A stretch of 42,397 nt of DNA from Pirellulales bacterium (lineage in GTDB: Bacteria; Planctomycetota; Planctomycetia; Pirellulales; JAGQOS01), in contig JANQPJ010000152.1 in assembly GCA_028289525.1 (NCBI GenBank), positions 1 to 42,397 on the forward strand. Direction: 5' to 3'. Below the pieces are notes generated by a model that saw nothing but the letters and a program-made list of their open reading frames with translations, made no database searches and had not been told where the DNA came from. The position numbers and the translations under genes were made by a program. Shown piece by piece: positions 438 to 42,397 of this stretch; positions within the stretch are counted from its first letter, which is position 1; each line of letters begins with the position of its first letter.

Positions 438-632
438 GACGCGGTGGAGGGTGGAGGGAACGCGCTCGCCGCGTTTTGAATTACTTGGATTGTTGGGCGT
501 TCCTTGTTGAATATTGGACACTCCCTTTGCGTCAAAGAAGAACACCCAATATCCAACAAGGAATATCCAATTTTCCAAGGATCAAGCAACGCGCGAGCGC
601 GTACCACTCACCAATAACTAACAACTAAAAAC
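438..632 (+). repeat. Composite intergenic element, copy 1 (G-rich box, GCGC stem, inverted core, ACTCACC box)
   Basis: The element starts right after the upstream stop codon. In order it has a G-rich box (GGTGGAGGGTGGAGGG at 443-458, able in principle to form a two-tetrad G-quadruplex), a GCGCTCGCCGCG stem, an imperfect inverted core built from CCTTGTTGAATATTGG and CCAATATCCAACAAGG, a second GCGCGAGCGCG stem and an ACTCACC box. A near-complete copy in reverse orientation lies at 37121-37320. No coding function is apparent. It fills the gap between the DUF1559 gene and the lipoprotein gene, so it would be in the leader of the latter if the two are co-transcribed. Confidence 0.8.
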
Positions 633-5599: not shown

Positions 5600-5609
5600 G
5601 TACGGACAA

Positions 5610-5687
5610 TACAAGCCCGACGCGCAAGCGAGGGAAGACGTTCCAATCCAATTCCCTCGCTTGCGCATCGGGCTTGTATTTTTTATT
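5610..5687 (+). terminator. Hairpin terminator with 26-bp stem and T-run
   Basis: Arms 5610-5635 and 5653-5678 pair over 26 positions with one mismatch (core CGCAAGCGAGGGA), followed by a T-rich tract TTTTTTATTT at 5679-5687. It lies 10 nt after the stop codon of the upstream secreted-protein gene and before the convergent epimerase end, as expected for an intrinsic terminator of the plus-strand gene. The stem may also stop minus-strand readthrough, but no T-run is found on that side. Confidence 0.85.
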
Positions 5688-7749: not shown

Positions 7750-9618
7750 ATGTGTGGAATTGTCGGGTATGTGGGCCATGGCCAGGCGGGCGATTTTTTG
7801 GTCTCAGGGCTCCGACGGCTGGAGTATCGGGGCTATGACAGCTCTGGCGTTGCCTGCATGGACGAGGAAGGTCGCACGCAAATCGTGAAGACAGCCGGGC
7901 GGATCGACAATCTGGCCGAACGATTGGCCCAATCTCCGACGCCTGGTAGCGTGGGGATCGGCCACACGCGTTGGGCCACGCATGGCCCGCCGACCGACGA
8001 AAACGCCCACCCTCATGCCGACACCGGGGCCACGTTGGCCTTGGTCCACAATGGGGTGATCGAAAACTTTCGGGCACTCAAGCGACGCCTGGAGTCCGAA
8101 GGCTGCCAGTTTCAGTCGGCCACCGACAGCGAGGTGATTGCCCATTTGATTGCGCTCGAATTGACGACCGCCCAGCGCCAGCCGACCAGCGATCTCGATC
8201 CTTACGCACCGCTGGTGGCGGCCGTTCAGGCGGCGCTTGCCCAACTCCAAGGCACCTATGGCCTGGCGGTCGTGTTTCGCGATTGGCCGAACGTGATCGT
8301 GGCGGCTCGCCAAGGCAGCCCTTTGGTGATTGGCGTCGGCGATGGCGAACATTTTTTGGCCAGCGACGGTTCGCCGTTGGTCGGTCGGACCGACAAAATT
8401 GTCTATCTGGCCGACCACGAGTTGGCGGTCGTGACGCCTGACTCGCTGCGCGTCGTCCATCGCGACCAAGGCCACGTACAACACGATGTGCAAACGCTCG
8501 AAATTGACACTGGCGACATCGGGCTCGAAGGCTATCCACACTATATGCTCAAGGAGATTTTTGAGCAGCCGGAGACGGTGCGCAACGCCATGCGGGGCCG
8601 CCTGAGCCGCGACGAGGCAACCGCCGTGTTCGGTGGGCTTAATCTGACGCCCCAGCAACTGCGGTCGGTCAATCGGATTGTGATGACTGCCTGTGGCACG
8701 AGCTGGCACGCCGCATTGGTCGGCGAATATATGATTGAAGCGCTTGCTCGAATTCCAATCGAGGTCGAGTATGCCAGCGAACTACGCTACAGCAACCCTC
8801 CGCTGGACGGCCAGACGCTGGTCTTCGCACTGACCCAAAGCGGCGAAACGGCCGATACCCTGGCTGCCCTGCGCGAAACCAAACGCAAAGGCCACCCCAC
8901 GCTGGCCATCTGCAACGTCGTTGGCAGCACGATTGCCCAAGAGTCGGACGGCGGCATCTATCTGCACGCCGGCCACGAGATTGGCGTCGCCTCGACCAAA
9001 GCTTATACATCGCAATGTGTGGTGCTGGCGATGCTGGCGCTCTACTTGGGCCGGTTGCGCCACTTGAGCTACGAAGCCGGACTACGGCTGATCGACCAAT
9101 TGGAGCAGTTGCCAGACCAAGTGGACAGGGCGCTGGCGACCAACGATCGGGTGGCCGAGGTCGCCAAGAAATACGCCGAGTGCGACAACTTCCTCTACCT
9201 AGGCCGCCAGTTCAACTTCCCGACCGCACTGGAAGGGGCACTCAAGCTCAAGGAAATCAGCTACATCCATGCCGAAGGCTATCCGGCCGCCGAAATGAAG
9301 CATGGTCCGATCGCCTTGGTCGACGAGCAGACGCCAAGCGTTTTCATCATGCCTCAGGGTGCGGTTTACGACAAGGTGATTGCCAATCTCGAGGAGATCA
9401 AGGCACGCGGCGGGCCGGTTATTGCCATTGCCGGCGAGGGCGACGATCGGGTGGCCGAAATGGCCGACGACGTGATCTACGTGCCCCAAGTAGAAGAGTT
9501 TTTGCAGCCGGTCGTGGCCATCGTTCCGCTCCAATTGCTCGCCTACCACATCGCCCTCTTGCGCGGCTGCGACGTCGACAAACCGCGCAATCTGGCCAAA
9601 AGCGTCACAGTAGAGTGA
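7750..9618 (+). CDS. glmS: Glutamine-fructose-6-phosphate aminotransferase (isomerizing)
   Basis: GlmS makes glucosamine-6-phosphate from fructose-6-phosphate and glutamine, the entry step to peptidoglycan and LPS amino sugars. The start is set by the family: the ATG gives MCGIVGYVG, so Cys2 becomes the N-terminal nucleophile after Met removal; the frame stays open 26 codons upstream, but those codons are not part of the enzyme. The 622-residue protein has the glutaminase domain (EYRGYDSSG, HTRWATHG), two SIS sugar-isomerase domains (CGTSWHAA, TQSGETADT) and the conserved ending NLAKSVTVE. Its TGA stop codon forms the first bases of a dispersed G-rich element. Confidence 0.97.
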   Translation: MCGIVGYVGHGQAGDFLVSGLRRLEYRGYDSSGVACMDEEGRTQIVKTAGRIDNLAERLAQSPTPGSVGIGHTRWATHGPPTDENAHPHADTGATLALVHNGVIENFRALKRRLESEGCQFQSATDSEVIAHLIALELTTAQRQPTSDLDPYAPLVAAVQAALAQLQGTYGLAVVFRDWPNVIVAARQGSPLVIGVGDGEHFLASDGSPLVGRTDKIVYLADHELAVVTPDSLRVVHRDQGHVQHDVQTLEIDTGDIGLEGYPHYMLKEIFEQPETVRNAMRGRLSRDEATAVFGGLNLTPQQLRSVNRIVMTACGTSWHAALVGEYMIEALARIPIEVEYASELRYSNPPLDGQTLVFALTQSGETADTLAALRETKRKGHPTLAICNVVGSTIAQESDGGIYLHAGHEIGVASTKAYTSQCVVLAMLALYLGRLRHLSYEAGLRLIDQLEQLPDQVDRALATNDRVAEVAKKYAECDNFLYLGRQFNFPTALEGALKLKEISYIHAEGYPAAEMKHGPIALVDEQTPSVFIMPQGAVYDKVIANLEEIKARGGPVIAIAGEGDDRVAEMADDVIYVPQVEEFLQPVVAIVPLQLLAYHIALLRGCDVDKPRNLAKSVTVE

Positions 9619-9707
9619 CGCGGTGGAGGGTGGAGGGAGACGCGCTCGCGCGTATCAACAACCAACAAACCAACATCCAACGTTTCGCGAGCGGCCGCTG
9701 CTTTTCC
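9616..9707 (+). repeat. G-rich/GCGC element abutting the glmS stop, followed by a GCGAGCGGCC repeat
   Basis: Starting with the stop codon of glmS, the sequence runs through GCGGTGGAGGGTGGAGGGA and a GCGCTCGCGCG stem, matching copy 1 at 438-475. A truncated GCGAGCGGCCGCTGC element follows at 9681-9707. The remaining bases up to the flgF start (9708-9956) contain no gene and no convincing promoter; a GGCAC-TTC-TTGC sequence there does not have sigma-54 spacing. Confidence 0.75.
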
Positions 9708-10709: not shown

Positions 10710-10782
10710 TTCAAGAAACACGTCAGCACGTCAAATACCAAACTCTAAATCCTAAATCAGAAATCCCAACGGGGTAGTTGTT

Positions 10783-11586: not shown

Positions 11587-11650
11587 TGCGCGGTCGAGAG
11601 TCGAGGGCACGCGCTAACACGGATTACTCACCACTCACCACTCACCACCT
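11587..11650 (+). repeat. Stop-abutting GCGC element with three ACTCACC heptads
   Basis: The element follows the flgG stop codon immediately: GCGCGGTCGAGAGTCGAGGG, then CACGCGCTAACACG, then three tandem ACTCACC units at 11626-11646. It ends 6-10 nt before the flgA ATG. It is a shortened version of the composite elements at 438-632 and 37121-37320 without the inverted core. Confidence 0.7.
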
Positions 11651-11656
11651 ACCAAC

Positions 11657-12733
11657 ATGAACCAGTCATCCACTAACTTGTGTTTCATCCTTCTACTCGG
11701 CACTGCCGTGTCGAGTTCCGCGGCCGAAATCCATCTTCGTTCTCAGGCTCGACCGGTGAGCAGCCTGGTCCGGTTGGCCGACATTGCTCAAGTCGTCGCC
11801 AACGATTCGCAACAACAAACAGAATTAGAGTCGATTGGCCTGGTGCCGGCCCCGGTCGACGGGCAGACTCGCTATTTGGGCATTCGCGAACTCCAGGATC
11901 TGCTCCACCTGCGAGGAGTCGACTTGACCACTTTACGGTTCTCGGGGGCCAGCCGCGTAGCGATTGGGGCCGATGCCGAGCAGCCAGGTCGTCGAACAAA
12001 TCGCCTTTCGACCCAAGAGGCCGGCCGTGCTCAACAACGAGTTCACCAGGCACTCCAACAGTACTTGGACGCCCAGGCACCGGGGGCCAACTGGCAGATT
12101 GCTTGTCCACTCAATGCCGCTCAAGTGGCCGCGGTTTCGCAGGCAGGCGGGGCCATTCAGGTCTCCGGAGGTCATGCGCCGTGGACTGGTCAGCAGCAGT
12201 TTCAGCTCCGCTTGATCCATCGAGGCGGAACGCAAACGATCGGCGTAACCGCTCAAGTGTCGCTGCCCCAGGCGGTGGTAACCGCTGCCAGGCCGTTGCC
12301 GCGCGGGGCGATCATCAATGCCTCGGATCTGGTTTTGCAGCCCAGCGATTCACCACGGCTGCGAGCTGGAGAAGATCTGTTTCATGAAATTGAATTGGTG
12401 GCCGGGATGGAGACCACTCGATCGGTGGCCGTGGGCGAGCCGATCCATGCTCGCAGTGTGAGAACGCCGCAGTTGGTTGCCCAAGGCGATGTAGTCACAG
12501 TCTACTCGAGAGCCGGAGGAATTTCGGTCCGCATCACCGCTCGGGCTCGGCAAGCTGGTGGATACGGAGATTTGATTGCAGTCGAAACCTTTGAAAGGAA
12601 ACGGTTTTTTGCTCGGATCAGCGGACCGCAACAAGTGGAAATCAGTGCCGAGCCGGCGCCGGCCAAACGTCCAACAACTGCCCAAGCTTCGCGCGAGGGC
12701 GGTCGGCGGGCTGTGGCCCTGGCCAACCAATGA
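11657..12733 (+). CDS. flgA: Flagellar P-ring assembly chaperone FlgA
   Basis: FlgA is a periplasmic chaperone for assembly of the FlgI P ring. The 358-residue product is longer than the E. coli protein (219). It has a signal peptide (1-23, cleavage after SSA/AAE), an additional N-terminal half (about 24-200), an SAF domain (ARPLPRGAIINASDL, 211-225) and the C-terminal FlgA domain (VRITARARQAGGYGDLIAVE, 291-310). The long N-terminal half with a Gln-rich helix is common in distant FlgA proteins. No Shine-Dalgarno sequence precedes the ATG; the leader is the C/A-rich ACTCACC repeat. The gene lies between flgG and flgH. Confidence 0.88.
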   Translation: MNQSSTNLCFILLLGTAVSSSAAEIHLRSQARPVSSLVRLADIAQVVANDSQQQTELESIGLVPAPVDGQTRYLGIRELQDLLHLRGVDLTTLRFSGASRVAIGADAEQPGRRTNRLSTQEAGRAQQRVHQALQQYLDAQAPGANWQIACPLNAAQVAAVSQAGGAIQVSGGHAPWTGQQQFQLRLIHRGGTQTIGVTAQVSLPQAVVTAARPLPRGAIINASDLVLQPSDSPRLRAGEDLFHEIELVAGMETTRSVAVGEPIHARSVRTPQLVAQGDVVTVYSRAGGISVRITARARQAGGYGDLIAVETFERKRFFARISGPQQVEISAEPAPAKRPTTAQASREGGRRAVALANQ

Positions 12734-12787
12734 GGACGCGGTGAAGGGTTGAGGGTGTAGGGTGGAGGGAAAACGCTTACGCGGAGA
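12731..12787 (+). repeat. G-rich/GCGC element abutting the flgA stop
   Basis: Beginning at the flgA TGA, the stretch GACGCGGTGAAGGGTTGAGG continues as GTGTAGGGTGGAGGGA, then ACGCTTACGCGG. It is a member of the same G-rich family as the copies at 438, 9616 and 37300. Its end supplies the GGAG (12783-12786) that serves as Shine-Dalgarno 6 nt before the flgH ATG. Confidence 0.7.
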
Positions 12788-15054: not shown

Positions 15055-15481
15055 TAAAACTAATTTTTGAATGAAGCTAGTACCTTCATTCACTTGAATT
15101 TGTGAGTTGTAAGCTTCTGTTTCCCCCCTAGCCGCGACAAGACTTTGTCGCCGGGAAGCCTTGGGCCGTAACACGAAACTTTGCCAAACAACAAATACAA
15201 GCACGTAGCGCCGCGAGTTGACCGTGAAGTTCGAGATTCAGTGGTTGCACATTTCTCATGTTGAGCAGTAGCAGCGGTCGGTGATCGCTCGCGAAACCGT
15301 TGATTTTACAGATTTCCAGAAAACAATCGGTTTTCGAGCCCTTGTTTTTGGAACGACTGAGATTCATTCGCTGACGCGTCATGCTTGTATTTTTCATTTA
15401 GCCTGTTTTGAGACAAAGCCCAAAATCCCCCCTTAAGAAAATTCACTTCGTGAAATGACTAAACAAGAAGAGAGGCACCCA
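15055..15481. other. Intergenic region with repeats inside the flagellar cluster
   Basis: No convincing gene is seen in this gap. It holds a GCGAGCGGCC-type repeat at 15270-15297. A 19-nt sequence TGTTTTGAGACAAAGCCCA at 15404-15422 recurs in reverse at 42302-42320. A minus-strand open frame over 15128-15397 reads through the repeat (FASDHRPLLLL) and is judged spurious. A promoter for flgN-flgK may lie here but was not identified. Confidence 0.6.
15270..15297 (-). repeat. GCGAGCGGCC-type repeat copy
   Basis: The sequence AGCAGCGGTCGGTGATCGC followed by TCGCGAAAC is a variant copy in reverse orientation of the repeat seen at the pyrG end. Mismatches fall in the central stem. Confidence 0.75.
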
Positions 15482-17863: not shown

Positions 17864-17906
17864 AAAGCGTTTTAGTCTGCTTACACGCGCAGGCGTCGTT
17901 TCTCTT

Positions 17907-18026
17907 GTTCCCAAGCTCTGCTTCAAGGCATTTCGAGAAACGTAGGTCGACGAGCGAGGAATCAATAAAAGGATGCCTGGGAAGCAGAGCATCCTTCCAA
18001 AGCGTTCCCAAGCAGAGCTTGAGAAC
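17907..18026 (+). repeat. TTCCCAAGCTCTGCTT paired element, copy 1
   Basis: The element begins GTTCCCAAGCTCTGCTTC and ends GTTCCCAAGCAGAGCTTG-AGAAC, with CTGGGAAGCAGAGC in its middle. It recurs almost intact at 24717-24823 and as a minimal palindrome at 25610-25654. It lies between flgK and flgL; an open frame running through it in phase with flgL is not thought to be part of that gene. Confidence 0.75.
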
Positions 18027-18108
18027 GAGACGAAAAAGTACGTGCGATCAATTCCCAAAACGCATCCTACAAACCAAGTCACCATTTTCTACCCTACCGC
18101 GAACTTCC

Positions 18109-24499: not shown

Positions 24500-24716
24500 C
24501 TGGCGTTTCAGGGTTTAAAGCAAGTTACCCAAATACTTGTTGATGTTTCGTCGAGAAGTCTCAGTGAAAATTAGGTCGCGCCCGCGATGGTAAGGGGTGC
24601 AGCCTGGGTTTTGAGACGAAGTCCAGCATCTGTAGCGACCACCAAAGTATCCGTGTGCCGGCCGCCTTTGGATTTCTGATCTGACGTGTTGACGCGTACG
24701 AACAACCAAAAACCAA

Positions 24717-24823
24717 TTCCCAAGCTCTGCTTCAAAACGTAAGTCGATGCTCGAAGAATACGCAAAAAGACGCCTGGGAAGCAGAGCTTTCTTCAAAAGC
24801 GTTCCCAAGCAGAGCTTGGGAAC
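24717..24823 (+). repeat. TTCCCAAGCTCTGCTT paired element, copy 2
   Basis: The element has the same three blocks as copy 1 at 17907-18026: TTCCCAAGCTCTGCTTC, a middle CTGGGAAGCAGAGC and a final GTTCCCAAGCAGAGCTTGGG-AAC. It lies beyond the rimI stop codon, in the space between the convergent bamA and rimI. The end can pair with the beginning or with itself, so more than one hairpin is possible. Confidence 0.75.
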
Positions 24824-24885
24824 CAGGCTAAAGCGACTAGATCTTTCTGGTTTTTGCGGAATAAGCGGCTCTGATTGAGCCTGCA

Positions 24886-25609: not shown

Positions 25610-25654
25610 CTCGTAGTCTCGTTCCCAAGCTCTGCTTGGGAACGAGACTACGAG
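25610..25654. repeat. Perfect 21-bp hairpin with 3-nt loop
   Basis: The arms 25610-25630 and 25634-25654 are exact reverse complements (outer CTCGTAGTCTCG, inner TTCCCAAGC) around the loop TCT. The inner part is the minimal TTCCCAAGC palindrome of the elements at 17907 and 24717, here extended by 12 further base pairs. It lies 50 nt after the stop codon of the giant gene and about 200 nt before the rimI start. No T-run follows on the minus strand, so a Rho-independent terminator is not certain. The 25408-25703 gap shows no gene. Confidence 0.9.
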
Positions 25655-31700: not shown

Positions 31701-32828
31701 CCGCCCTTCCGACCACTTCAGGTCAGGCAGCCGGATCCGTGGCAAGCGCCAAGCGCCTGCGGCAACCGGCGGTGCAATCGCCAGCAAACGAATCGTCTGT
31801 CCCGTCCCAACCAGCGGTTCCGGCAACTGCAATACCACCTGATTCTCGGTCTGCTCGGCAGACGATTCGGCCACCCAGGCAATTTTCTGCTCGCCATAGC
31901 GGGCAGCGACAAGCCTGAGCGTTGGCGCCAGCGAGACGCGAATCGCATGCAGGGGACGCTCGGGATCGTCGATCGCAAATTGGGCCGAAACCTCGACCCC
32001 ACGAGGAGAAAAATCGTACGTGGTCGCTTCCCGCACGGCCGCTCGGGCAGTCGACGCGGCAACCTCCTGACCACGACGAATACGCAACTCAAACTGGGCC
32101 CGTGCCCCGGGCTCTAACCGCCACTGTCGGCGATGGCCGGCAACCGGGCCCACGTCGCTTACCAATCCACCGGCCAATACAGGGCGATCGCCCTCAGGCA
32201 GATTGATCATGATCCGCTGTAGCGGGCAAGGCACCAAGGCCAAATCGTATTGCAAGTCGTCCTGTTGTCCAACGGCTCGCTGCGTCCACTCGATGTGAAG
32301 CTGCCCAGGGTGCTCGACCATCAGGGCCAGCTCTCCGTTCGGCTGGAGGCCCAAACGCGCAGGCTGTCCATCGCTGTCTTGCCAAACAGCTTGTTCGATT
32401 GCTAACCGGCAAGGCCCCAAAGGCAACGACACCGCCCGATCGCCCTGGTGCGAAATTTCCAGCAGCGCCTGACCGATCAAGTTCCCGGCGTCGTCCAAAC
32501 GAGCTTCATATCGGGCCTGAGTAACGCGCGACATGACCAAGTCGGGCACGCCTGCCGCGGCCGCTCGCGCGCGCCGCAAGAGGGCATCGAACTGGTCAGG
32601 CGCGATCGGCAGATACGGCTCCTTGCCGAGTGGCCAATCGTCGATCCGATCGGCCGGCGCGAAAATCCGTCGATACTCGATCTCACGCGGTGCGTGGCTG
32701 GCAGGTTCGGCCGCTTGAGCCCCACACGTGCCAACCAGCCATACTAATCCCACGACAACTTGGCGCGCTAGCCAGCTCAACAGCAGCGGCCGGTGGCCGC
32801 TCGCGAAACGCTTGTCTGGCGTGCTCAT
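25704..32828 (-). CDS. Giant exported membrane protein, two fused paralogous units (B and C)
   Basis: I do not recognise this 2374-residue protein. Unit B has a signal peptide (to about 40, ending AQAAE), a beta-rich ectodomain (50-1165) and three hydrophobic segments (about 1173-1238). Unit C begins with a signal-like hydrophobic stretch (1248-1264), continues as ectodomain (1281-2280) and ends with three to four hydrophobic segments. The units align by eye: REIEYRRIFAPADR with VKIHRVFIPIDDDR; FPQDWIIDSI (471) with IPKELVVDSV (1707); RQWTLWVPSGY (913) with RGLWTVSGPAGY (2125). Its ATG overlaps the upstream stop as ATGA, indicating coupled translation. The N-terminal [13 protein letters not shown] is encoded by a dispersed repeat. 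No catalytic motif was seen; a surface, scaffold or adhesion role is only a guess. Confidence 0.85.
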   Translation of the reverse strand: MSTPDKRFASGHRPLLLSWLARQVVVGLVWLVGTCGAQAAEPASHAPREIEYRRIFAPADRIDDWPLGKEPYLPIAPDQFDALLRRARAAAAGVPDLVMSRVTQARYEARLDDAGNLIGQALLEISHQGDRAVSLPLGPCRLAIEQAVWQDSDGQPARLGLQPNGELALMVEHPGQLHIEWTQRAVGQQDDLQYDLALVPCPLQRIMINLPEGDRPVLAGGLVSDVGPVAGHRRQWRLEPGARAQFELRIRRGQEVAASTARAAVREATTYDFSPRGVEVSAQFAIDDPERPLHAIRVSLAPTLRLVAARYGEQKIAWVAESSAEQTENQVVLQLPEPLVGTGQTIRLLAIAPPVAAGAWRLPRIRLPDLKWSEGRIEMMIPRPLVLEQLDTQGCTQTRTLRLPEPRLGELIELQQFQEDCQVQVVVRRDETKLQVRQGTTIEVGASEVVGQMTAQLTVDGAPQFTLDAKFPQDWIIDSITSVPEEAIADWSMRRGKDGSGEVAIRLAKGLAVGRTLKIVARGHLRRSNLDELLPALRLRMLDFQQAQLAADWLLVRASDPYRLASEGDERLLQVDPATLEVETVELLNGPWSGMLFDHGADTRRLAFRLVTAGARYEAALALEAQVENDSLTESLVIRCTPIESRIDRLLVHFTQRRANPWRWTLATDGEPQLSAQRILVAEGTEEASPQGETWEIVLRQARSVPFEIRATCTVPVKPAMAIGLAGLPQAASQSATVSVMAGRRFAVGLANERLEPIPPEPWADEKTTAARMVFRYEPARDALQGAPVAIRVQRRSHVSPGSSAWVWNCDVQSQYARDGKAIHSACYAIENIGHRQVRLSWPAELRFRSAWLDGTLVKPTQHLGGQREIAIPLPTGERFPQLVVRYETEQLAGSLTRSERPLVPQIDLPVIRRQWTLWVPSGYTVRSADASWLESVPWRERIFGPLARTASLPFHPGRLTDWSTMFSVEPAAERDRAWVRALLERLGQALPADDSGRQLTWGAWLEMAESLQTVGPRRTAVWEPLLVDEQSLAAGEILPEGLVPWQDVHGPSLQQAVEILQRAKLALLVAPGAVVLTTEVEAATRANRAPLLPEVAAYAFEASGKQGHLATTPDRPWVAVADWNEAGGLVKLPWTSTGIPRLPRQGWNAFRVADWSPETTTVQVVDRVAIQALSGASFLFAFAMVLWGSRRQARLGWLALAASGTLALAMPVIYAPIATGAVLGSLAALALQAIALHDSGRRKLPATTASLALLLSIAPEAVFGQTVPEPVQASDQMRPEVKIHRVFIPIDDDRKPTGGMYQVPESLLHDLTRRAETVSGVPRGWLLTAADYRLRLVRGMDEDAPQMVQARAVFSITVLHRNRPIRIALDPRDLAHRPLVAQVDGRDQPLAWDVEGGYCELPGQPSGEHRVTIQFRPKLLATPTGTRVDFRVPRLPSSTIAVEAAVGQSQPRLPGIAGAVRLDRAAGMLRGRLGSAKRIQADWAVAPHGATQALRFDALQLLWLDVRPGTVVLSARFKLRVSQGELTRLRIEADPRLRLLPAPPDAPVRLIETIPGVRTTYVWELKRPAQDQVVFEGRWLLRGVSGVGKLSLPFLRLLDTATTERLLGVSVDKSLESEVKAAEGKLQPTDVMEFFGHWGIEHQPPQRAYALDSQTVGWTLATWPQSPQMTAQQTLALSFRRRSALVAYEVAIETRRGFYLRQMLAIPKELVVDSVSVTQNRTEQAVRWSRTDDGTLTVFLKQPLSGTHRLRLTGNIPVPATQRFTVPKIALRSASGEVAPQGLLGPLRLNVYRLPEVLVDLPDDGLASLDQPKRRPAHAAGRWVASFLVLPDAVPLGFRVSANEPKVQSTLVTRMVPRGDRWAVEVDYRAEVEQGRLDAIYFDLPAWFANSPEVAPAADTVLADLPGQPHQRLIVRPRQALAGKVAFRMNFPLDLEAGQSLRVPEIVPIGPGNVQRYVVLPKQTGEKQITWRTRGLQPAKPPWLMPQRLESYLVFGRDFSAVPQMSGATLGTPQIELADVSITWQADGRMHAVATFDLEPAGLAECRIRFPKQFELLQAMVADQPASLRRAGSGDWRVATISRRLPQRVAVLFSGAIERLADQQVRLVVPELWAHGKPIPVTRGLWTVSGPAGYRPIQASRGDQIGVVSAAGQRVESMGRLLSRAADIDQRQSAEEIQRWYWPWARRFLASERALVHAIAAAGRETISREVQTTATTAHDEQLRLARRLGVMAQYAKLRGETSTVSQLGNLYRDLHRGTASRWSEPGTAWQPVVEVDYAEPDRGDWLWRWLVVLGLATSLGIAVRGCHLATMGEWLWRWPHLMVAIVGLVWWLWLAPSVVGLALMFVGLYLAVRRAWNAGEAPVLLLILVLFP
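32781..32810 (-). repeat. GCGAGCGGCC-type repeat coding for the N-terminus of the giant protein
   Basis: Read on the minus strand the copy is CGTTTCGCGAGCGGCCACC followed by GGCCGCTGCTG, matching the copy at the pyrG 3' end almost exactly. It supplies residues 7-16 of the giant protein, [10 protein letters not shown], that is the basic and first hydrophobic residues of its signal peptide. Confidence 0.88.
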
Positions 32829-37120: not shown

Positions 37121-37320
37121 GTTGTTAGTTGTTGGTGAGTGGTGAGTGGTGAGTGGTGAGTGGTACGCGCTCGCGCGTTGCTTAATCCTTGGAAATTGGA
37201 TATTGGGTGTTTTTCTTTGACGCAAAGGAAATGTCCAATATTCAACAAGGAACGCCCAACGATCCAAGTAATTCAAAACGCGCGAGCGCGTCTCCCTCCA
37301 CCCTAAACCCTCCACCGCGT
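37121..37320 (-). repeat. Composite intergenic element, copy 2 (reverse orientation)
   Basis: Read on the minus strand this copy has the G-rich box (GGTGGAGGGTTTAGGGTGG), GCGCTCGCGCG stem, core CCTTGTTGAATATTGG with CCAATATCC, GCGCGAGCGCG stem and four tandem ACTCACC heptads (GGTGAGT on the plus strand, 37134-37161). Blocks and order match copy 1 at 438-632 over nearly the whole length. It ends about 15 nt before the monophosphatase ATG, so it forms most of its leader. Confidence 0.85.
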
Positions 37321-37625
37321 CCTTCCACCGCGCAAAACCTACCGGGGGGGCAACCGCCGACCAAGAGATATGTGTACCGGTAAATTTTAACGACAATCAG
37401 GGAAGCCTGAGTGTAAAGACCAAAAAGTTTCAAAAAAGAGTCTGCTTGGCATTCGAGTTTTCTATCCAAAAGACTGGACATCCAGCGCCAAATCTGTATG
37501 ATCGAATCTTAGTGAACGAAGAGGGTGTCGAGTTTTCATCTAGCGAGAGTTTATTCACGGCAGCATACGCCTTATTTTTATTCATCTCAGCTTCGTTGGT
37601 GCATTCGGCCTCTTCTCTGTTCCGG

Positions 37626-37709: not shown

Positions 37710-38459
37710 ATGGCATCTACTGTGTGGCAACTCGACGACCAGAGCGCCGCGCTGACTCAACCAGGGTTGCGCGCCAACTTTCAGCTCTCCAATCCTCAAC
37801 AGGGAATTGTGGAGTGCCAGGTAGCCGACGCGCGTCTCGACGCCAAGTTGTTGCAGGGCGCTCGCCTCGACCCGGCGACCGCAGGCTGCCAGTTGCTCGA
37901 GGCATACGTTCGGCAAAACGATTTGATCGCCAGCTACACACTCGGACAAGAACAGCCTTTTGAGTTGAAACACTATTGGCGTGGCTTGCCGTCTAACAGC
38001 ACGTCGACTCTGGCCGCCCTGGAACTGATCAGTTCGATGCAAACCGAGCTGCTCGATGCGCTGCCGCGATGCGTGGTAGGTAGTCGCTTAGCGGCCGTCC
38101 AATCCGTGCTGATTTGGAAATCGGTGGAGGACGACTGGCAACCGTTGGAAATCGAGCCAGAAAGTTCGCACATGTTCGCCCACCATCAGGTGCCGGCTGG
38201 CGTGCTCTGGCGTTTCAAAGCGCCTCAGGTAAGCTACTTAGAACTGATCCCGCCTGGCGACGCCCAACAGTTGCGGTTGGCTCGAACGGCCAACGGTGCC
38301 GTAACTTCGCAATGGCAAATTTTTGCCCGACCGCTTGAAAAGGGAGTAATCCTCCGCTCGCGCCTGTATGGCGTGTTGGTGGAACAAGCCACCGACCTCG
38401 ACCAAGCTCAGCATTGGTGGCAAGCTCTTGAGTCGAGCCAACTGCCTTTGACGGTGTAA
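37710..38459 (+). CDS. Hypothetical protein, mixed alpha/beta
   Basis: I do not recognise this 249-residue protein. No signal peptide or membrane segment is seen. The first half has several beta-strand-like stretches (VWQLDDQSAAL, FQLSNPQQGIVECQV). A helical part with LAALELISSMQTELLDALP follows. The end carries ILRSRLYGVLV and QAQHWWQALESSQLPLTV. The codon use and composition match neighbouring genes, and no overlapping frame on the other strand shows a domain. Upstream a terminator-like hairpin lies 45 nt before the ATG. No Shine-Dalgarno is clear. It may be a planctomycete-restricted family. Confidence 0.7.
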   Translation: MASTVWQLDDQSAALTQPGLRANFQLSNPQQGIVECQVADARLDAKLLQGARLDPATAGCQLLEAYVRQNDLIASYTLGQEQPFELKHYWRGLPSNSTSTLAALELISSMQTELLDALPRCVVGSRLAAVQSVLIWKSVEDDWQPLEIEPESSHMFAHHQVPAGVLWRFKAPQVSYLELIPPGDAQQLRLARTANGAVTSQWQIFARPLEKGVILRSRLYGVLVEQATDLDQAQHWWQALESSQLPLTV

Positions 38460-38655
38460 AAAGTTTTTAGTTCTTGGTTTTTAGTTCTTAGTTTTCATGA
38501 TCGAAAGTGGCGCTGTCCAACTAGAGCGAGTCGCTCTTTACCATAGCAGGCACGGCCTAGCTTCCACCAAGATTTTCCGACGAAACACGACTACGAATCA
38601 TCCAAAATTGCTCTAAGGCCGTTGGATTCGCGCGACCATCCATCAAAGTTGCATT

Positions 38656-39291: not shown

Positions 39292-39434
39292 CGTACACGT
39301 ATTTTTCTAATCGGGCTACGAATTGGGTACCCTGGAAGCCGAAATTTCCTGCCCTTGAAAGCCCGACTTTTTCGATTATAACGCTTATCCCGTGGGACCA
39401 CTGGCCAGGAAAACTGCAGAGTCAACGATTCTAC

Positions 39435-39510
39435 AAAAGCAGCGGTCGGTGACCGCTCGCGAAACGGCTAGACTCTCCCGTTTCGCGAGCGGCCGCCGGC
39501 CGCTGCTTTT
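39435..39510. repeat. Two facing GCGAGCGGCC repeats forming a 32-bp inverted repeat
   Basis: The left arm (39435-39466) and right arm (39479-39510) pair over 32 positions with three mismatches, around a 12-nt loop. Each arm is a full repeat unit with AAAAGCAGCGG at its outer end and CGCGAAACG at the inner end. It lies between the ClpP-like gene start and the promoter of the zinc-ribbon gene, and could form a cruciform or isolate the two transcription units. Confidence 0.88.
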
Positions 39511-39548
39511 CGACTTTGCAATCGTCCTGGGGCCACTGGCCCTGCTGC

Positions 39549-42136: not shown

Positions 42137-42397
42137 CGAAGTACAACCTAAACGAAAGCAAGTTCTATCGTTTTCCGACGATTACACTACGGAGTTACGG
42201 AGGGGGAAAATCCGAAATCCGAATTTCGGATTTCTCCCAAGCCCCCAAGGTCGATTCCACCCGGCTGAAGTCTTACCTAAAATTCAAATACTATTGTCCA
42301 CTGGGCTTTGTCTCAAAACAAGTATCAACGCGCAGGAGAACCGCAAAGTCATTGATTCCACAAGAGCAGCGGCCGGCGGCCACTCGCGAAACAGGAA
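42137..42397. other. Terminal intergenic stretch with palindromes and repeats
   Basis: No gene is seen up to the window end. It holds a 21-nt palindrome GAAATCCGAA-T-TTCGGATTTC (42214-42234). It also holds the inverted copy TGGGCTTTGTCTCAAAACA (42302-42320) of the sequence at 15404-15422, and a GCGAGCGGCC-type repeat (42364-42392). The promoter for the HTTM pair is expected in this stretch but was not identified. Confidence 0.6.

Follow-up and report, generated by a model that had tools for sequence, protein, structure and literature searches.

The intergenic composite at positions 438-632 of the window (the whole 42,397-nucleotide stretch analysed, contig 92 of a 4.04-Mb draft genome in 425 contigs) is, on balance, best explained as a member of a family of fold-back repeats that are dispersed, non-coding, and non-autonomous and are built of modular arm-box-arm units, at the boxes of which exchange and slippage would occur. 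The unit is centred on a 14-bp near-palindromic box, ACGCGCTNGCGCGT, with an arm on either side, and the arms are arrays, usually of four to five heptads, that belong to interchangeable types:

H1 arm, read outward from the box: CTNNACC
H2 arm, read outward from the box: ACTCACC/ACTAACA/ACCAATA
H3 arm, read outward from the box: AAATCCC/AAATTCC/AAATCAG
H4 arm: TTGGACATTCCTTGTTGGATATTGG, REP-like, corresponding to half of the "core" of the initial annotation

The same ordered blocks had been reported at 438-632 and 37121-37320, and the alignment bears this out: blastn matched 438-613 to 37154-37321 on the minus strand at 84% identity (E 1.9e-55). The composite at 438-632 is thus repeated at 37121-37321 in the opposite orientation, with the block order H1-box-H4.H4-box-H2; the G-rich arms of the two copies differ by one 7-nt unit, and the core of the second carries a 15-nt deletion. 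A repeat search recovered the complementary inverted arms of the pair as stretches of 87 nt at 95% and 47 nt at 94%. The parts of the two composites are as follows:

438-459, plus strand: H1 arm of GACGCGG and GGTGGAG heptads, beginning 1 bp past the TAG stop (434-436) of a DUF1559 gene
460-474, plus strand: left box, ACGCGCTCGC-CGCGT, with one extra C
475-588, plus strand: core, an imperfect inverted repeat of two H4 arms placed tail to tail with a short loop between them
589-602, minus strand: right box, matching ACGCGCTCGCGCGT exactly on this strand and facing the opposite way from the left box
603-632, plus strand: H2 arm of ACTCACC/AATAACT/AACAACT heptads, ending about 20 bp upstream of ATG 653
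37121-37164, minus strand: H2 arm of the second composite, ending about 17 bp upstream of the inositol-monophosphatase ATG (37105-37103, minus)
37165-37178, plus strand: exact box of the second composite
37179-37277, minus strand: core H4.H4 of the second composite, with the 15-nt deletion relative to the first copy
37278-37291, minus strand: second box of this composite, exact on the minus strand
37292-37321, minus strand: H1 arm of the second composite, CTCCACC/CTAAACC/CTCCACC, terminating in CCGCGTC

Matches to the 14-bp box number 13 in the window, compared to 3.6 expected, and this number was reached in none of 100 shuffles. The window also holds further elements, complete or decayed:

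1995-2108, no strand assigned: H4-box-H4 element with perfect 31-bp arms at 1995-2025 and 2078-2108 and the box AACGCGTCAGCGCGTT at 2054-2067
9614-9681, plus strand: H1-box-H2-like element without a core, abutting the stop of the gene that ends at 9618, with an exact box at 9640-9653
10718-10767, plus strand: decayed box and H3 arm (AAATCCT AAATCAG AAATCCC) upstream of ATG 10783
11592-11656, plus strand: H1-box'-H2 element with the degenerate box ACGCGCTAACACGG, its H2 arm running straight into ATG 11657
12737-12785, plus strand: H1 arm with a decayed box, lying between the stop at 12733 and ATG 12793
38462-38497, minus strand: H2 arm with no recognisable box, 2 bp past the stop at 38459

The 31-bp inverted repeat at 1995-2108, which had been described as the core standing alone, is real (DNA fold z = -13.6), but it has its own box between the arms, and these arms point the opposite way round from those in the composites. 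No part of the window matched an Rfam family at the gathering score.

The 195-bp element used as a query gave 72 aligned pieces in the genome, and about 25 further copies of the core were found, each near different genes. About 1.32 Mb of the genome, roughly one third, was read, in a sample partly chosen for its matches, and genes were called by a home-made codon-usage script. In a survey of 424 kb picked regardless of matches, from which 5 N-runs were removed, repeat arrays of period 7 were strongly enriched, with 17 arrays, whereas period 14, a multiple of 7, gave 6 and almost all other periods gave 0-3; all of the period-7 arrays were intergenic. Heptad arms were present on 99 of the 114 boxes with at most one mismatch, whereas control palindromes gave 3-16 hits, and only one of the 99 arm-bearing boxes lies in a coding region. 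Among the classified H1-H3 arms, 129 of 130 have the A/C-rich strand reading outward from the box. Since the polarity is fixed relative to the box, the left arm of every element is G-rich and the right arm A/C-rich.

This polarity bears on how the elements relate to genes. At both composites the ACTCACC end does face the next start codon (ATG 653 and, on the minus strand, ATG 37105), as the initial annotation had stated in proposing a mobile 5' leader cassette, the A/C heptads of which would serve the downstream start. Both composites and the element at 11592-11656 run straight into a start codon, their A/C-rich arm before the start is predicted to be single-stranded, and heptads before starts are known in Beggiatoaceae (PMC4679880). 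However, a fixed orientation to the downstream gene was not observed across the genome: between co-directional genes, the ratios of starts to stops faced were 14:15 for H1, 10:9 for H2, and 13:12 for H3 arms, and gaps between convergent genes hold ten more H2 arms. Because the arms read A/C-rich outward, any gene that starts beside an element automatically has an A/C end before its start codon, and the polarity is set by the box, not by the genes. The leader cassette is contradicted as a general rule, although it could still be rescued for a subset of the elements, and as an account of the family it is very improbable. An apparently non-autonomous palindromic element with a conserved block order is the part of the earlier proposal that stands.

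The arms have an internal order. H1 arms have four units in 32 of 55 cases, H3 arms have five units in 32 of 49, and in H3 arms a CAG unit occupies a set position, the third or the fourth. The reading of the heptads as plain slippage products was set aside in view of this order and of the preferred lengths. Elements combine the arm types freely, mixed-arm elements being as common as symmetric ones, in which both arms are of the same family. In addition, over the 16 nt adjoining the box the two arms of one element match each other better than they match the arms of other elements (H1, p 1e-4 and 0.004; H3, p 0.018 and 0.015). This match declines outward from the box and is weak over the whole 32-nt arm (p 0.045 for H1 and 0.23 for H3), as expected for a unit that was inserted whole and whose arrays drifted later. 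A telomere-like or template-repeating activity that adds heptads at DNA ends, with the box as the join of two ends, would account for the strict polarity, in which the G-rich strands on either side run towards the box, as when two telomeres are fused head to head, for heptads such as GGGTTTA, and for arms that start at gene ends. The ordered, type-specific units and preferred lengths argue against such an activity, as does the within-element match adjoining the box, which fits a unit copied whole, and we regard it as extremely unlikely.

The elements are closely apposed to genes. An arm lies within 10 bp of a gene end in 57 of 84 elements, compared to a mean of 28 and a maximum of 36 in 2000 simulations in which the elements were placed at random within the same gaps. 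The gene caller's starts are sometimes wrong (ATG 11657, directly after an H2 arm, was missed), and distances to start codons are therefore overestimates. Insertion alone does not explain this tight contact. One alternative is that the elements are selected transcript-boundary elements, in which an arm-box-arm RNA hairpin after the stop terminates or insulates transcription in both directions. In its favour, the arms abut stops, and symmetric elements fold strongly (-0.60 kcal/nt, compared to -0.31 kcal/nt for control intergenic regions) and lie between convergent genes in 8 of 20 cases, an enrichment over the baseline of 94 of 560 (p 0.014). Conversely, the equally common mixed-arm elements are no more stably folded than ordinary intergenic DNA (-0.26 kcal/nt), the elements lack a following T-run (mean T fraction 0.26), and the preference for stops is marginal once errors in gene starts are allowed for (70:51, p 0.055). 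Taken together, these results make a boundary hairpin a rather unlikely explanation of the family as a whole. An intrinsic terminator, a GC-rich hairpin followed by a T-run, was rejected, given the missing T-run and the unstructured mixed-arm elements.

Comparisons between loci indicate how the elements change. Contig 248 carries a paralogous pair, a DUF1559 gene and a small gene about 60-80% identical to those of the window, and this locus has the arrangement GACGCGG-H1-box-H2 with no core; the two loci thus differ by the core and one box. The locus without the core may be ancestral, or it may have arisen by deletion. The tract at 588-760, comprising the right box, the H2 arm, and about 100 bp at the start of the downstream gene (to about 750), is 92-94% identical between the paralogs, and this contrast with the 60-80% of the flanks suggests gene conversion. 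Elsewhere, a composite of about 280 bp is common to two loci with unrelated upstream flanks, which supports the copying of whole composites. The two boxes of one composite are mutually inverted, yet they match at 12 of 14 positions as a direct repeat.

The element is likely to be mobile. Inspection of the element ends revealed no target-site duplication, and no transposase or autonomous partner with the same ends was identified in the loci read (about one third of a draft genome). None of the five Y1 transposase (Y1_Tnp) loci of the genome carries recognisable box or heptad copies on both sides, and a link to a RAYT was accordingly rejected; one of these loci has a single box and an H3 arm at one end, and another is flanked by a different REP. 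A classical MITE, mobilised as a whole composite by a transposase acting in trans at terminal inverted repeats, would fit the dispersed copies with inverted-repeat ends and no ORF, as well as the paralogous locus without a core. Nevertheless, the elements end in variable heptads and not in a fixed terminal repeat, the inverted arrangement of the boxes in one composite shows that the box is not a duplicated target, and neither the target duplication nor the flanked Y1 gene was seen, so that this origin is unlikely, a little more so than the boundary hairpin.

From the sequences we infer how the modular fold-back elements move and what they do. Units would be copied as DNA into new places, and the hairpin between two boxes would be lost or gained via replication slippage or template switching, leaving one box; such loss or gain is possible because each box is both an inverted and a nearly direct repeat of the other (12/14). 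Arms would be exchanged at the box, and slippage would alter the number of heptads. More tentatively, the elements may be retained at gene boundaries because they do no harm in such positions or serve as transcript-boundary spacers, which would place the G-rich strand after a stop and the unstructured A/C-rich strand before a start. The double character of the boxes offers a testable reason for the coming and going of box-flanked hairpins.

Among known systems, the nearest description is that of the heptameric G-rich repeats GGGAATC and GGGGA(C/T)T of Xanthomonas and Nostoc (Rehm et al. 2015, PMC4692102). These are likewise dispersed intergenic heptads with a four-unit preference, a short distance to genes, and a G-rich strand that is sense downstream of stops and antisense upstream of starts, and those of Xanthomonas include many convergent pairs arranged as inverted repeats. 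Both of the features that mark such repeats, namely over-representation of heptads in intergenic DNA relative to other unit lengths and that strand arrangement near genes, were found here. A single G-quadruplex-type consensus heptad was not: H1 arms have about four G-tracts, and the H2 arms and the CAG/TCC units of H3 arms do not fit one. The present elements further differ in having several heptad families around a shared 14-bp palindrome, exchanged arms, and a REP-like core in composites. They are a modular variant of intergenic heptamer repeats, in which the palindromic box, the arm exchange, and the REP-like core are new.

The TAACTGA heptads described in Beggiatoaceae, Cyanobacteria, and Bacteroidetes (MacGregor 2015, PMC4679880) are also intergenic and in contact with coding ends. 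They are mostly direct forward arrays before starts, only one inverted repeat having been reported, whereas the present elements fold back around a box and have no start preference. REP/BIME sequences with their RAYT (PMC2817692) resemble the H4 arms in their head-to-head and tail-to-tail arrangement, as intergenic palindromes in many copies, but here no Y1 transposase was found with box elements on both sides, and heptad arrays form the outer ends. Bacterial MITEs (review PMC10969869) share the short, dispersed, non-coding inverted-repeat structure, but no fixed terminal repeat, target duplication, or partner transposase was found in the loci read. MITEs, RAYT-REP systems, and intrinsic terminators thus each differ from the elements in at least one tested membership feature.

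The string made of the box and a following A was counted 55 times in this genome, against 0 for a control string, and of 57 relatives searched three had it once each. Among 297 genomes of the order, a single other one carried the core, in copies about 80-97% alike, head to head and tail to tail, without the box and the H1-H3 arms. AAATCCC arrays are patchy, with 2 carriers among 119 genomes of the class and 14 among 294 of the phylum, and ACTCACC arrays are present in 6 of 58 genomes, all counts including this genome. One other genome has the same layout without a box: a stop, GGGATTT heptads, an unrelated centre, AAATCCC heptads, and a start. Some distant genomes have fold-backs of further heptads, and others have one-sided arrays only. 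A search of 84,980 GTDB genomes for the exact box plus ACCACTCACC gave two matches only, both coding and attributable to chance; 62 viral contigs contain the 16-bp box string, judged to be at chance level from the size of the collection, and the core and H3 strings had no viral matches. In these searches the box was essentially confined to this genome, whereas the same heptads, often folded back without a box, are patchy across the phylum.

It is conceivable, though doubtful, that the elements represent a combinatorial class in which the palindromic box is a joint for swapping heptad arms, each arm being a gene-boundary module, so that intergenic regions are built from interchangeable parts; the box would then be an addition local to this genome, made to the phylum-wide, patchy heptad fold-backs. 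The family described here brings heptamer repeats, REP-like palindromes, and composite elements together in one modular system, and some planctomycetes have whole intergenic regions made up of such modules, in contact with both gene ends. The literature gave no description of such elements in planctomycetes, and none was found for the mix-and-match build.

The DUF1559 gene and the nature of its relatives mark the genome as probably planctomycete. Planctomycete intergenic DNA is poorly understood, and elements of this kind can mislead searches for regulators and break assemblies. The ends of contigs 38, 317, and 322 fall inside core copies, contigs 38 and 317 having the same start, and the core palindromes seem to break the assembly there. 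A MITE-like sequence with the ends CTAGAGC..GCTCTAG lies in the loop of one core copy and beside another (L060 4336-4629 and L057 291-584).

Other repeats were noted in passing. A separate REP/BIME family, CGTTTCGCGAGCGGCC..GCTGCTTTT, lies at 2595-2628, 9681-9698, 15266-15298, 32778-32810, 39434-39511, and 42361-42393; contig 310 has a Y1-transposase-like gene with copies of CCGCTCGCGAAACG on both sides, which is a candidate RAYT for this family. Near-perfect palindromes at 1804-1873 and 5608-5680 have the common word CCCTCGCTT(A/G)CGC and belong to a different repeat family. The repeat family GTTCCCAAGCTCTGCTTGGGAACG occurs at 17903-18035, 24712-24832, and 25617-25644 and adjoins heptad arrays in other contigs too. 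Finally, a short fold-back at 42206-42236 consists of a further heptad type, AAATCCG, and resembles the fold-backs of distant planctomycete genomes.
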